From positions 1 through 34,865 of IMG/VR virus record IMGVR_UViG_3300033571_010371: DNA of 34,865 nucleotides, one strand, 5' to 3'. A program made the translations under genes and the position numbers. A model generated the notes under the pieces. The model was not told where the DNA came from. It did not search any database and saw only the letters and a program-made list of their open reading frames with translations. Positions 1 to 34,865 of the stretch are shown here, piece after piece; positions within the stretch are counted from its first letter, which is position 1; each line of letters begins with the position of its first letter. Origin of the DNA: a virus.

Positions 1-104
1 CCGCCGAGGCCGGAGCCCCGAACGCGTTCGGATTGGTCGGCGCGGAGGCGAATCTCCCTGCGCCCCCCTTCTCGCTGTGCTTGCAGGGTCCCGAATCTGG
101 GGAT

Positions 105-149
105 AACCCTGTGGATATGTGGACAACCCTGTGGATATGTGGACAACCC
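105..149 (+). repeat. 20-bp tandem direct repeat in the origin-like region
   Basis: Two exact copies of a 20-bp unit occupy 105-124 and 125-144, and the first bases of a third copy follow. Each unit carries two overlapping DnaA-box-like sequences, TGTGGATAT and TGTGGACAA. The unit equals about two helical turns, so bound proteins would lie on one face of the DNA. Confidence 0.8.
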
Positions 150-214
150 GAGGGTCATGGGTGGCCTTGTGGAAAAAGCTGTGAATATGTTGTGGACAAC
201 CGGGATCGTCAAAA

Positions 215-244
215 AACCGGCAGGTTGTGGAAAACCTGCCGGTT
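215..244 (-). terminator. 12-bp perfect hairpin, minus-strand terminator or origin hairpin
   Basis: A perfect 12-bp inverted repeat (215-226 with 233-244) surrounds a 6-nt loop. On the minus strand the stem is followed by a T-run, complementary to the A-run at 211-216, which is the form of a rho-independent terminator reading leftward. No minus-strand gene lies upstream, and two DnaA-like boxes overlap the structure, so a role in replication is also possible. Confidence 0.5.
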
Positions 245-308
245 GTGGATAACCAGTCGACCGCTGAAACCCCTACTCTGTGGAAAACCCCCGACGAATC
301 GAGGACTC

Positions 309-734
309 ATGCCCCCAGGCTCAAAACCCCAACCGCCAGGCAAATCAGATCAACGCGAATCAGTGTTCAAATGGAACGTTGCTGAACATGAAGGCTGGCA
401 ACACGGCAAAGTCCCGCCCTGCCCCAAAGGCCTTTCCAGCCACGGCCAGAAGGCCTGGAAGACATGGATGAACGCGTGGTGGGCAAGTTTCTATTCAGCC
501 GAAGATTTGCCGGGCCTCGAGTTACTTGTCTTCCTTTATGACCGGGTCATGAAAGAAGAAATCGACGTCACAAAAATCATGCCGCTACTGGATCGGTACG
601 GCATCACCCCGAAGGGACGGCAAGACCTTCGATGGGCACAGTTGCCGGAGAAGAAAGCCGATCCAGTTCTCAGCTCCGATGTTCAAGACGAAATTGCCGA
701 ACGCCGCCAGCAACGCCGAACAAATCTGGCCTGA
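309..734 (+). CDS. Terminase small subunit
   Basis: This 141-residue protein directly precedes the large terminase and has the look of small terminase subunits, which bind phage DNA and deliver it to the packaging motor. A middle helical stretch (LELLVFLYDRVM) is followed by GITPKGRQDLRW near residue 100, a pattern common in actinophage small terminases. The C-terminus is charged (ERRQQRR), as expected for contact with DNA or the large subunit. The reading frame is open back to base 33, but that extension runs through the DnaA-box repeats and has low complexity, so I start at ATG 309, with GAGGA just upstream. The role rests on position and general family features rather than a diagnostic motif. 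Confidence 0.75.
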   Translation: MPPGSKPQPPGKSDQRESVFKWNVAEHEGWQHGKVPPCPKGLSSHGQKAWKTWMNAWWASFYSAEDLPGLELLVFLYDRVMKEEIDVTKIMPLLDRYGITPKGRQDLRWAQLPEKKADPVLSSDVQDEIAERRQQRRTNLA

Positions 735-739
735 TCACG

Positions 740-2365
740 ATGCCCCTTACCCGACTAGTAGCCCCAACAGAATGGCCGACCCTCGGCTGGCAGGTCATTG
801 ATTGGACTGAGCAGTATCTATGTCACGGCCCTGGAGACATCCAAGGCGAACCGTTGGTGTGGGATGAAGAGTTCTGCCAGATCATCCTTGATTGCTACCG
901 GATTTTCCCGAAAGGCCATGAGAACGAAGGCCGAAGGGTTGTGTCCTATTTCGGCATTTCCATGCCAAAGGGAAGAGCCAAATCGGAATTTGCCGGCGCT
1001 TTGGTTTGCGCCGAACTTCTCGGACCGGTCCGATTCGATGGTTGGGACGCCAATGGTGACCCGGTCGGAAAACCTGTCACCTACCCCTTCATTCGGCCGT
1101 TGGCGACGGAGGAAGGCCAGACCGGCAACACCTACGGAAACATTCAGACAATGTTGGAACACGCGCGCGAACTGTTTCCCACCGAATGGCAGTTCAACCA
1201 ACTCGATATCGGGTCAACTCGGACACTTCTAGGCAAGGGCGGCCGATTGGGCGAGGTTCGACCGTCAACAGCCGGCGCCGCTTCAAAGGATGGCGGTAAA
1301 GAATCTTTCGCAGTTGTCGACGAACCCCATTTGTATTACTTGCCGGAGTTGCGGCAAATGCACGCCATGGTTCGTCGAAACACTAGGAAGAGAAAGATTG
1401 CCCAACCTTGGATGTTGGCGACAACCACAATGTTCCAACCAGGTCAACATTCGGTAGCTGAGGATCTTTACGATGAGGCCGAAAAGTTGTTGGAGAAACC
1501 GAAACGATCTTTCGGGTTTTGTTGGCATCATCGGGAAGGGATCATGTCGGAATCTGATTGGGATGACGATGCCGCACAGTTGGCGTCTCTGCGCGAGGCG
1601 TATGGCCCGGCCGCCGATTGGATGGATTTGGCTGGCATGGTTGAACACGAAATCCGTGCCCCCGGTTCCGTAAAAGCCGAAAACGCCCGTTATTTCCACA
1701 ACCTCCGATGGAAGGGCGACCAACGCGCGATCGATCCCGACAAATGGGATGCGTTGGCAGCTCCTTCTTTGAACCCTCAAGGAGGCGAGTTCATCGCTAT
1801 CGGCTTTGATGGTTCGGACCGTGGCGAACACGCCGACGACACTGTCCTTGTCGGATGGGTTCTCACAGAGAAACCCCATTTGTTTCTAATTGATCGTTGG
1901 CGCCGTCCGGAGTTCGCCGGCAGGGACTATCGGGTGCCTCGAGAGGAAATCCGAGAGAAAGTGGCGGAATTGCGGGAAACATATGAAGTTCGACGTTTCG
2001 CGTGCGATCCGCCTGGTTGGCGTGAGGAAATCGACTCTTGGGACAAGGAGTTCGGAGAACGCTATGGAGAACCGGTGGTGGTCGAAGTATTGACAAACCG
2101 TCCGACTCGGATGGGACCGGCCATCGACCGGTTCCTCGAGGCGATCGATGAACAATCTTTCACCCATGACGGTTCAGAGGAGTTGCGGGAATACGCTTTG
2201 AACGCCTTGTTGACGAAGTCAAAAGGTAGAACCGACTTGCCAGCCGTCGTGAAGCCTACAATTGATGCAAAGATCGACGGTTTAGTAGCCGCAATTCTCT
2301 CTTATGACGAGGTAGCCAAGATGTCCCCCGAACAGCCCGTCGCCCCGTTCGCGCTTCTCGCATGA
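740..2365 (+). CDS. Terminase large subunit (packaging ATPase/nuclease)
   Basis: This 541-residue protein has the two-part plan of phage large terminases, which pump DNA into the prohead and cut it. The N-terminal ATPase has a Walker-A-like segment SMPKGRAKSEF (about 74-84) and a Walker B, FAVVDEPH (about 190-197). The C-terminal RNase-H-like nuclease shows its acidic residues in GFDGS (D357), FACDPP (D423) and AKIDGLVAA (D513). Length is normal. ATG 740 follows the small-subunit stop by five bases; the same frame is open from 632, but that part overlaps the previous gene and looks non-coding. The next gene overlaps its stop by 4 bases. Confidence 0.95.
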   Translation: MPLTRLVAPTEWPTLGWQVIDWTEQYLCHGPGDIQGEPLVWDEEFCQIILDCYRIFPKGHENEGRRVVSYFGISMPKGRAKSEFAGALVCAELLGPVRFDGWDANGDPVGKPVTYPFIRPLATEEGQTGNTYGNIQTMLEHARELFPTEWQFNQLDIGSTRTLLGKGGRLGEVRPSTAGAASKDGGKESFAVVDEPHLYYLPELRQMHAMVRRNTRKRKIAQPWMLATTTMFQPGQHSVAEDLYDEAEKLLEKPKRSFGFCWHHREGIMSESDWDDDAAQLASLREAYGPAADWMDLAGMVEHEIRAPGSVKAENARYFHNLRWKGDQRAIDPDKWDALAAPSLNPQGGEFIAIGFDGSDRGEHADDTVLVGWVLTEKPHLFLIDRWRRPEFAGRDYRVPREEIREKVAELRETYEVRRFACDPPGWREEIDSWDKEFGERYGEPVVVEVLTNRPTRMGPAIDRFLEAIDEQSFTHDGSEELREYALNALLTKSKGRTDLPAVVKPTIDAKIDGLVAAILSYDEVAKMSPEQPVAPFALLA

Positions 2366-31827: not shown

Positions 31828-32183
31828 CTCAATACGGAACAACCGATCTTTACCGGCTCTACGACGGCAACCAACTTCTCTACATCGGCATATCCCGAAA
31901 TTACAATCAACACAGAAAACACGACCACGCGCGCCGATATGGGAAACACATAGCGGACAACCCAGTCATCGAAACTTTTGAACTTCGATTCGAAGCAGAA
32001 CTCGCCGAAGTCGTAGCCCAATACCTCGAACAGCCAAGAGACGGCCGATACCAAAAAACTCTCAGAGGAGTCAACCGGGAAATCGACAGAATCACCGCTG
32101 TCTATGCAGAGCATCCGGACCGACTCTTCACAGACTTAGAAACCCACGCGACTCACGCCCTAGCCGAATACTTGGGAATTTGA
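31824..32183 (+). CDS. GIY-YIG nuclease-like protein
   Basis: This 119-residue protein has LYRLYDGNQLLYIGIS (9-24), the GIY-YIG-type strand pair with a degenerate first motif, followed by R25, H30 and R31, and a later EAELAEVVAQYLE (57-69) with E59 as a candidate metal residue. GIY-YIG domains cleave DNA; small actinophage and plasmid members exist and their role is poorly known. The C-terminal part, EIDRITAVYAEH to ATHALAEYLG, is helical. Starts in an ATGA overlap. Confidence 0.68.
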   Translation: MTQYGTTDLYRLYDGNQLLYIGISRNYNQHRKHDHARRYGKHIADNPVIETFELRFEAELAEVVAQYLEQPRDGRYQKTLRGVNREIDRITAVYAEHPDRLFTDLETHATHALAEYLGI

Positions 32184-32185
32184 CA

Positions 32186-34342
32186 ATGACATCCCCGCTC
32201 CCGACAGCCATTGAATACATTCGGCGAGGATGGCGTGTCGTCCCCATCCGACCAGGCGAAAAACGACCGGCCCTCACCAACTGGCAAAACATTGCCAGCA
32301 ACAACCTAGAAACCGTCACCGAATGGTTCACCGGACCATACCGTGACCACGGAATCGGCATCGCCACCGGCCCCGAAACCGGCATCTTCGTACTCGACGT
32401 CGACATCACCGAAACCAAAGCCGGAGACGAAACCCTCGCCGAACTTGAACAAAGCCACGGCAAACTCCCCGACACAGCCACAGTCATCACCGGATCCGGA
32501 GGATGGCACCTTTACTACCACTACCCGCCAAACCTTGAAATCCGAAACGACGCCGGCCGACGCCTAGGACCAGGACTCGACATCCGAGGAACAGGCGGCC
32601 AAGTAGTCGCACCCCCAACCATCCACCCCAACGGACACCCCTACCAATGGGACCACGGATGCGACACCATCGCCGACGCCCCCCCATGGCTCCTCCAACT
32701 CCTCACCGAACGCGACCAACCAACCAACCCCACACCATCGGCAACCATCGGCGACACCAACGACTCCATAGCCGCCCGATACAACGAAACAACCAACTGG
32801 CCCCAACTACTCACCGAAGACGGCTGGACACTCACAGAAACACACACCAACGGAGAACAACACTGGACCCGACCAGGCAAAAACCCTGAACAAGGAATCT
32901 CCGCCACCACCGGCCACGAAGGTCGCGACATCCTCACCGTCTTCACCTCGAGTATCCCATGGCTTCCAGAAGGCTCCTACAGCCGCTTTGGCTACCACGC
33001 CTGCCGACATCATGAAGGCGACCGCTCACAAGCCGCACGACACCTCCACAACATCACCAGCAGAACAACCGAAAACTATTTCGAAACCCAACTCATCACC
33101 CCAACCACACCAAAACCCATTGAACCAGCCGAACGAATCGAACTCGCCCACCTGGTCAACTGGGAAAAACTTTGGACCGACGATCGACCCGACGAAGAAT
33201 GGATCGCCGAACCAATCATCCCCAAAGGCCGATCCATAGCCCTATACGCCCCAGCCAAAGCCGGAAAATCCACCATCACCCTCGCCATAGTCGCAGCCGT
33301 AGCAACCGGCGGACGGATCCTCGGACAAACCAGAGCCACCCCCACCAGCTGCCTATACCTCGACTACGAAATGACAGAAGACGACCTCATCGAACGCCTA
33401 ACCGACCTCGGCTACGGACCCCAAGACAACCTCCAAAATCTTCACTACGCCCTACTCCCATCACTCCCCCCACTCGACACACCAGAAGGCGCCCACGCCA
33501 TACTCAACCTCGTCGACCAAACCAAAGCCCAACTAGTAGTCGTCGACACATTCGGCCGTGCCGTCGAAGGCGACGAAGACAAAGCCGACACAGTCCGCAA
33601 CTTTTACAGACACACAGGGCTATCGCTAAAAGCCCGAGGGATAGCCGTCCTCCGAACAGACCATTCCGGAAAATCTGTTGAAAAAGGAATGAGAGGAAGT
33701 AGCGCAAAGGCAGACGATGTCGACATCGTCTGGCAACTATCCAGAACCGACACCCGCAACGGAGACGGAATCCGCCTCAACCGCACCCACTCCCGACTCT
33801 CCTGGGTGCCCCAAGACATACGAATCAGCCGCACCGAAACCGACTACGGCCACGACTACATCATCGACGCCCAAGACCAAACATGGCCCAACGGCACACG
33901 ACAAGACGCAGACCTACTCGACACCCTCCAACTACCCAACAACATCGGCTTCAACCACGCCAAAACAGCCATCCGAGAAGCCGGACACAAAATGCGAGAC
34001 GCCCGCATCCGAACCGCCCTCAAATTCAGAAAACAAGCCGCCCACAGCGAAGCCGACCTACGACTCAAAGCCGGAATCACCGACAATTCACAAGCGCACA
34101 AGCGCGTCGGACGCGATGAAAACCAGCCGGACGCGCAACGCGTCCCAAAAAACCGGGACGCGCACCCCGAAAAGCGGGACGCGCCGGCCTCTAAACAAAA
34201 CCCCCACGTCACAGGCTCAGAAAAACGGGACGCGATAGACCCCGAACGGGACGCGCAAAGCGACGGTCCAACGGGACGCGTTCCCCCCTATAGGGGGACG
34301 CACCCGGACTCACCCACAAACACCCCACCCCCGCTCTTCTAA
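32186..34342 (+). CDS. Primase-polymerase/helicase fusion
   Basis: This 718-residue protein has a prim-pol (AEP) domain first: RRGWRVVPIRPGEKRPAL (14-31), GIFVLDVDI with D71/D73, SGGWHLYY with H108, and GLDIRGTGGQVVAPP. The second half is a RecA/RepA-like ATPase: Walker A LYAPAKAGKST (about 353-363), Walker B QLVVVDTF (about 449-456), RTDHSGK and MRGSSAKADDVDIVW. It should prime and unwind at the phage origin. The last 85 residues form a charged low-complexity tail with repeated RDA, encoded by iteron-like repeats. ATG 32186 is preferred; TTG 32180 would give a TTGA overlap. The coding strand is strikingly A/C-rich. Confidence 0.88.
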   Translation: MTSPLPTAIEYIRRGWRVVPIRPGEKRPALTNWQNIASNNLETVTEWFTGPYRDHGIGIATGPETGIFVLDVDITETKAGDETLAELEQSHGKLPDTATVITGSGGWHLYYHYPPNLEIRNDAGRRLGPGLDIRGTGGQVVAPPTIHPNGHPYQWDHGCDTIADAPPWLLQLLTERDQPTNPTPSATIGDTNDSIAARYNETTNWPQLLTEDGWTLTETHTNGEQHWTRPGKNPEQGISATTGHEGRDILTVFTSSIPWLPEGSYSRFGYHACRHHEGDRSQAARHLHNITSRTTENYFETQLITPTTPKPIEPAERIELAHLVNWEKLWTDDRPDEEWIAEPIIPKGRSIALYAPAKAGKSTITLAIVAAVATGGRILGQTRATPTSCLYLDYEMTEDDLIERLTDLGYGPQDNLQNLHYALLPSLPPLDTPEGAHAILNLVDQTKAQLVVVDTFGRAVEGDEDKADTVRNFYRHTGLSLKARGIAVLRTDHSGKSVEKGMRGSSAKADDVDIVWQLSRTDTRNGDGIRLNRTHSRLSWVPQDIRISRTETDYGHDYIIDAQDQTWPNGTRQDADLLDTLQLPNNIGFNHAKTAIREAGHKMRDARIRTALKFRKQAAHSEADLRLKAGITDNSQAHKRVGRDENQPDAQRVPKNRDAHPEKRDAPASKQNPHVTGSEKRDAIDPERDAQSDGPTGRVPPYRGTHPDSPTNTPPPLF
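34109..34301 (+). repeat. Iteron-like GGGACGCG repeats with about 21-bp spacing
   Basis: The 3' end of the primase-helicase gene carries GGACGCG at 34109 and 34129 and GGGACGCG at 34155, 34176, 34227, 34248 and 34273, with a near copy at 34294 and one inverted copy at 34139-34146. Start-to-start distances are 20, 26, 21, 51, 21, 25 and 21 bp, close to two helical turns. A 14-bp palindrome, CCCCCTATAGGGGG, lies at 34284-34297. This resembles the binding array of a replication initiator. It could also be a by-product of a repetitive protein tail. Confidence 0.6.
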
Positions 34343-34365: not shown

Positions 34366-34710
34366 ATGGCACAACGACGATGCGAAAAATGTGGGGGCTG
34401 GACCACCCCACCCCAACCATGCAAACCCTGCCGGCAAGCATACGAACGGGGCCGCCCCAGGGGCAGGGGCACCAGAGAGGAGTACGCCGGAGCATGGCGC
34501 TACAACTCCCAACAACTACGTCACGAATGGATCACACAACACGGCCACTGGTGTCCAGGCTGGAATATCCAAGGATGGGCAGGACGCCCACCCCACCCCT
34601 CCACCGATCTAGTAGTCGACCACGACCTCGGAATCATGTGTCGTAGCTGCAACAGCCATAAAGCCGCAACCCACGACCGGAAGAGGAACACCCCCAACCT
34701 CGAGGAATAA
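34366..34710 (+). CDS. HNH endonuclease
   Basis: This 114-residue protein starts with a C6-x2-C9 ... C19-x2-C22 zinc region, then the HNH core QHGHWCPGW, DLVVDHDLG (the DH pair), and MCRSCNSHKA (C-x2-C, N, H). HNH proteins of this size assist terminase in cutting cohesive ends in many siphoviruses, and lie next to the terminase genes. Here it is the last gene; the terminase genes are the first, so it would be their neighbour if the ends join. GAGGA (34355-34359) precedes ATG. The final Leu-Glu-Glu precedes the right DnaA-box cluster by some 20 bases. Confidence 0.85.
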   Translation: MAQRRCEKCGGWTTPPQPCKPCRQAYERGRPRGRGTREEYAGAWRYNSQQLRHEWITQHGHWCPGWNIQGWAGRPPHPSTDLVVDHDLGIMCRSCNSHKAATHDRKRNTPNLEE

Positions 34711-34730: not shown

Positions 34731-34820
34731 TCATCCACAACTTCATCCACACACAGCCCCCATCACACCAAGTTATCCACACCCCAATATCCACAACCTT
34801 GTCCACAGCCCTGTGAATAA
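34731..34820. other. DnaA-box-like cluster, right half of a putative origin
   Basis: Within 90 bases there are TCATCCACA at 34731-34739 and 34743-34751, a perfect TTATCCACA at 34773-34781, ATATCCACA at 34787-34795, TTGTCCACA at 34799-34807 and, inverted, TGTGAATAA at 34812-34820. The remaining bases to 34865 are G-rich and hold no gene. Most boxes point opposite to those of 110-287, so the two clusters mirror each other across the ends, about 150 bases apart if joined. Confidence 0.62.
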
Positions 34821-34865
34821 GGGGGAGGGGCCTGGGGACAACGGGGTCGATGGGGGCCTCTCAAC

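Follow-up and report, generated by a model that had tools for sequence, protein, structure and literature searches.

We analysed a 34,865-bp virus record from IMG/VR, hereafter the window, in which DnaA-box-like 9-mers are packed at both ends (Table 1). Read across the joined ends of the genome, an HNH-type ORF is followed by forward boxes, a flip in orientation near 34808, reverse near-boxes around the G-rich GGGGGAGGGG, a cos site, reverse boxes, and then the genes for the small (TerS) and large (TerL) terminase subunits. The first forward box lies about 390 bp beyond the end of the Prim-Pol/helicase gene. The HNH-type ORF gave no Pfam or PHROG match, and 79% identical homologues occupy the same place in the relatives L009 and L010. 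In the genomes searched, TerL had no relatives in a first scan and relatives of 35–38% identity in a second. No DNA similarity to known phages was found for the right end of the window, and the left array had one weak match, pointing to the Arthrobacter phage Tiff81. The N-terminus of TerS occurs in two allelic forms that are mixed among the relatives (window 309–734, L010–L032), which suggests recombination beside cos.

Table 1. Features at the two ends of the window, in order of position
Feature	Position	Strand	Remarks
Extra 73% GC sequence	1–55	.	Absent in every relative whose junction was read
cos core CCCTGCGCCC	56–65	+	Not at most contig ends of relatives; found in contigs spanning the junction
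Left genome end CCCTTCTCGCTGTGCT	66–81	+	Start of many relatives' contigs; same left end in box-free L302
Left array, ten reverse DnaA-box-like 9-mers (98, 110, 118, 130, 138, 168, 191, 226, 244, 279)	98–287	-	Seven exact
12-bp perfect inverted repeat, box in loop	215–244	.	Hairpin z -4.3; T run on minus strand
Terminase small subunit (TerS), probable	309–734	+	Position; weak Pfam Terminase_7, below cut-off; conserved in relatives
Terminase large subunit (TerL), ORF start uncertain	632–2365	+	phrog_9, E 1e-57
Prim-Pol + AAA_25 primase-polymerase/helicase	32180–34342	+	PF09250, E 1e-46; PF13481, E 4e-26
HNH endonuclease-type ORF	34366–34710	+	HNH by the sequence-only reading and by position
Right array, forward 9-mers: 34731, 34743 (TCATCCACA), 34773 (TTATCCACA), 34787 (ATATCCACA), 34799 (TTGTCCACA)	34731–34807	+
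Reverse near-boxes flanking the G-rich element: 34812 (TTATTCACA), 34833 (TTGTCCCCA)	34812–34841	-
G-rich element GGGGGAGGGG	34821–34830	+	Kept in relatives; similar GGGGAGG after box arrays of unrelated phages
Right genome end ..CAAC, adjoining the cos core	34862–34865	+	Same final base in L009 and L371

Boxes were called as 9-mers that differ from TTNTCCACA at no more than one position. By this measure the left array holds ten sites, all reverse, and the right array five, all forward, with two further reverse sites beyond it. An earlier sequence-only reading had counted 16 boxes at 110–287 and 34731–34820; these intervals yield 15, although the arrays themselves are real and, as it stated, two boxes are perfect, namely the TTATCCACA at 244 and 34773. 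Exact TTNTCCACA boxes number nine in the whole window, and every one falls within the two end clusters, which make up 1.2% of its length. Nine exact boxes in 400 bp compares with an expectation of 0.033, and none of 5000 simulations exceeded two. Matches to the DnaA-box consensus in the arrays are thus far above chance. The comparison with shuffled sequence that had been proposed as a check gives a split answer: the local clustering is clear, but the one-mismatch count over the whole genome is ordinary (33 vs. 28.9 in shuffles, not significant). In a 34,851-bp relative, 11 of 13 exact boxes likewise lie at the two ends, and the remaining two are TTCTCCACA.

In six related contigs the sequence continues across the join, giving CAAC, CCCTGCGCCC and CCCTTCTCG in succession, so that the two box clusters lie next to each other on the circular genome. 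The join has the HNH gene on one side and the terminase genes on the other, as in the sequence-only reading; that reading had also expected base 34865 to meet base 1, and while the ends do join, the partner in the window is base 56. Many relatives' contigs begin exactly at CCCTTCTCG, and the right end of the 34,851-bp relative likewise stops at CAAC. With ends that are fixed, that are joined in some contigs, and that lack the overhang, the junction is a cos site. The overhang is probably a 10-nt 3' CCCTGCGCCC, with its polarity read from the positions at which contigs end; ends without the ten central bases would fit the loss of 3' overhangs during library preparation, and assemblies without the overhang have been described (PMC5000459). 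Among relatives, bases 1–55 of the window were found only in L030, which is identical to the window across 900 bp and has the same start, and one 18-mer from them recurs in two unrelated contigs, about the chance expectation. These bases look foreign and are probably chimeric or artefactual.

The arrays are retained across the window's family. Forward boxes occur at the same place in six relatives (L010, L020, L026, L032, L009 and L371), the left region of the relatives has 7–11 boxes, and the place of the array, the orientation switch and the G-rich neighbour are all kept. Across the left array, box cores are 92% identical and other columns 68%, a comparison in which the aligner may favour repeats. 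The conservation of the boxes is selection-like. Among 131 sites, positions 1–2 are TT in 106, and position 3 is T in 49, A in 44, G in 37 and C in one; this variation is close to the degeneracy of DnaA boxes, for which the E. coli consensus is TTATNCACA (PMC5448010). The arrays had been described as mirror images facing each other over about 150 bases. Their opposed orientations are borne out, but an empty gap of that size is not: the flip is at 34808–34811, and the longest stretch between the arrays without an exact box measures 120 bp in the window, with exact boxes in part of it in relatives. L010 has exact reverse boxes (TTGTCCACA) at both near-box places, either side of the G-rich element, so the gap is no conserved feature. 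The inverted repeat in the left array is kept in L011 and L017 only, and not in L010 or others, and a candidate G-quadruplex was rejected as a conserved feature, being present in the window and L009 only.

Are such arrays found in other phages? We searched IMG/VR contigs for three same-strand boxes within 77 bp, and at least 120 contigs had such arrays. Raw counts alone do not discriminate, as a control motif also gave 109 matches, but 103 non-tandem, non-coding arrays were present among the matches listed, vs. 2 of 109 for the control. Contamination by host oriC was considered and set aside, as neither DnaA nor DnaN was among the 25 of 27 neighbouring-ORF Pfam families listed; the triple-box pattern did not mark oriC in four actinomycete genomes, so it is no general oriC signature there. 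Spacing in the other viral arrays peaks at 11–12, 21–22 and 32–33 bp, whereas the window's family is less helically phased, with 12 commonest and 14–18 also frequent. Several ssDNA microviruses also match the query (H102, H104, H105, H115 and H116; Microviridae, bajarodmic records). A narrower pattern, two boxes plus GGGGAGG, was found in 78 contigs vs. roughly 0.2 expected by our own estimate. Most of these resemble one podovirus-like group unrelated to the window, in which the array and GGGGAGGGG are followed by an AT-rich tract of 26–39% GC within loci of 44–47% GC. Where individual loci were examined, the array sat between the genes for primase and terminase, an oriC-like layout. At L387:4890-5130, and in most of the 78 contigs, this group (44% GC) has about ten boxes, GGGCCGGGGAGGGG and then an AT-rich tract, in a divergent gap separating the primase genes from the terminase genes.

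Boxes at the genome ends are found in two further groups of phages. Like the window, seven phages of Arthrobacter globiformis (Tiff81, Seahorse, Auxilium, Faja, Richie, Isolde and BillyTP) carry boxes together with G-rich sequence in the interval from the HNH gene to the cos end; they differ in having only two or three exact boxes, confined to one side of cos, and a different TerS, that of Tiff81 showing no similarity to the TerS of the window. No boxes were found at the right end of Hum25, which is the same as that of Tiff81, or of Eileen, whose end is near-identical. The second group has perfect TTATCCACA boxes clustered at both physical ends: five per terminal repeat in the T7-like phiEap-1 (L452), four in Shigella phage A7 (L453) and six in the SP6-like Klebsiella phage ZK1 (L455). 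Here the ends are direct terminal repeats rather than cos, both copies have the same orientation, and the hosts are Gram-negative. The boxes are unannotated in these three records, and similar matches occur in other Klebsiella podophages. The claim that phages rarely carry such arrays is contradicted by these two groups and by the more than 100 viral contigs. From these sequences, clusters at the ends of unrelated phages look like a recurrent means by which phages exploit or sequester host DnaA.

Sequestration is the first alternative to be weighed. The array would act as a DnaA sink, a decoy like E. coli datA: the boxes on all phage copies in the cell would together deplete the host oriC of free DnaA and stop host initiation; in a variant, boxes at the ends could enter the cell with the leading DNA. 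In E. coli, regions dense in boxes are documented to titrate DnaA (PMC12371093). The window shares with datA and other titration sites a dense cluster lacking an unwinding element, and the perfect-box arrays in the terminal repeats of phiEap-1, A7 and ZK1 would suit such a sink. T7/SP6-like phages are not known to need DnaA for replication, so their terminal arrays fit titration, or a role linked to the ends, better than an origin. Titration needs no fixed place, yet the window's putative DnaA-binding array is fixed at the genome ends and kept there with its orientation switch and G-rich neighbour, and oriC-like layouts are present in other phages. We regard a sink as possible, though less likely than not.

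The box-free outgroups bear on the readings tied to packaging. L301–L303 have a TerL 81–82% identical to that of the window and no boxes around it; L300 (TerL 78% and TerS 57% identical) has none there either, and the TerS of L301 is 53% identical. L302 starts with the same CCCTTCTCGCTGTGCG left end yet is without boxes around TerL, and its region before terS is about 65 bp long vs. 160–260 bp in the boxed family. The expectation that boxes occur wherever this terminase and cos end occur fails for L301 and L302, so the boxes are not obligatory terminase sites, and the array is a separate module beside cos, outside the minimal machinery. The left-end motif TCTCGCTGT is common to distant actinophage terminase loci (L273, L275, L276 and L300–L310), and the right end GACCGCCGGTGA to Tiff81 and Hum25 although their TerS differ; cos motifs thus outlast terminase sequence. 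That the boxes are cosB-type repeats recognised by TerS, merely resembling DnaA boxes, would suit repeats in one orientation between cos and terS. It is nevertheless highly improbable, as a 53–57% identical TerS in L300–L302 does without them, and the motif is also present both next to the unrelated TerS of Tiff81 and within the terminal repeats of T7-like phages.

DnaA itself might instead serve at the ends, as an architectural factor for cos cleavage, end joining or end protection. In phage lambda, IHF is such a host factor at cos, and cosB lies at the place corresponding to the array. The window resembles lambda and the 3'-overhang actinophages in having a cohesive-end junction beside terS and an HNH gene, with sites for a host protein, here predicted, at cos, but its arrays flank cos on both sides, and close relatives that share the left end lack them. 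Such a role would agree with the array straddling cos and occupying the place of lambda cosB, and with the recurrence of arrays at the ends of unrelated phages whose end types differ. However, the box-free L301 and L302 retain the same left end and a homologous terminase, and Hum25 lacks boxes at a right end like that of Tiff81, so that DnaA is at most an optional helper at the ends; we consider this role unlikely. A transcriptional switch, in which DnaA bound upstream of terS would regulate the late operon and tie the packaging genes to the replication state, draws on the seven exact boxes directly upstream of terS, and DnaA is a known transcription factor (PMC8203912). No sigma-70-like forward promoter was found upstream of terS, and the switch leaves unexplained both the forward boxes beyond cos and the Arthrobacter phages with boxes on the HNH side alone, which makes it quite improbable.

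The likeliest role, which we put forward tentatively, is a landing array for host DnaA serving replication start on the circularised genome. It shares with the three DnaA-based alternatives the binding of host DnaA, which we infer from sequence alone. Both arrays would form one element, a cluster of about 15 sites that cos divides in the linear DNA of the virion and that becomes complete after entry, when the cohesive ends join. Host DnaA would then bind, with convergent complexes forming around the G-rich/cos core, and the bound array would mark or load a replication start for the neighbouring Prim-Pol/helicase; cleavage at cos would split the element again ahead of packaging. We rank an origin first among the single roles because of the Prim-Pol gene next door, the boxes in two orientations, and the arrays with an oriC-like layout in other phages. 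Bacterial oriC clusters (such as Streptomyces oriC and B. subtilis incC) share with the window the 9-mer consensus, many boxes, two orientations and a replication gene nearby. Unlike them, the cluster in the window is split by cos, its phage has its own Prim-Pol, and neither an AT-rich unwinding element beside the boxes (the sequence after the G-rich element is 62% GC) nor a DnaA-trio was found in it.

The origin of phage P1, oriR, carries DnaA boxes. It likewise belongs to a phage replicon with perfect host-type TTATCCACA boxes, but it has RepA iterons and an AT-rich segment, whereas the window has many more boxes, no iterons seen, and an element that spans cos. Third-position GC skew, a measure suggested for locating the replication start, is negative throughout the window and shows no bidirectional-origin switch; since all genes are on one strand, skew is weak evidence here. 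The proposal that the arrays recruit or titrate host DnaA is still the best reading, but its origin part lacks an unwinding element, a DnaA-trio and a skew switch, and the weaker helical phasing of the boxes in this family is a further point against it. The lack of an AT-rich element, together with the arrays of T7-like phages, keeps titration and an end-linked role serious rivals to an origin. A broader scheme, and a rather unlikely one, is that cos actinophages and T7-/SP6-like podophages have converged on end arrays, and that in the window's family joining the ends would switch a DnaA complex on (for replication start or host shut-off) and terminase cutting would switch it off.

In the freely accessible full-text literature searched, we found no account of arrays of DnaA boxes at the cos sites or the terminal repeats of phages; a predicted phage origin with DnaA boxes has been placed at 70.5–70.9 kb of its genome (PMC11512268). 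The window comes from an uncultured actinobacterial phage in which a dense cluster of predicted DnaA sites straddles cos, as it does in relatives. Together with the other phages, it suggests that the genome ends of several unrelated phage groups may be bound by host DnaA, an idea we did not meet in that literature. As arrays are present in seven A. globiformis phages and in T7-like phages of Enterobacteriaceae, laboratory systems exist in which to ask whether they act as origin, sink or end factor.
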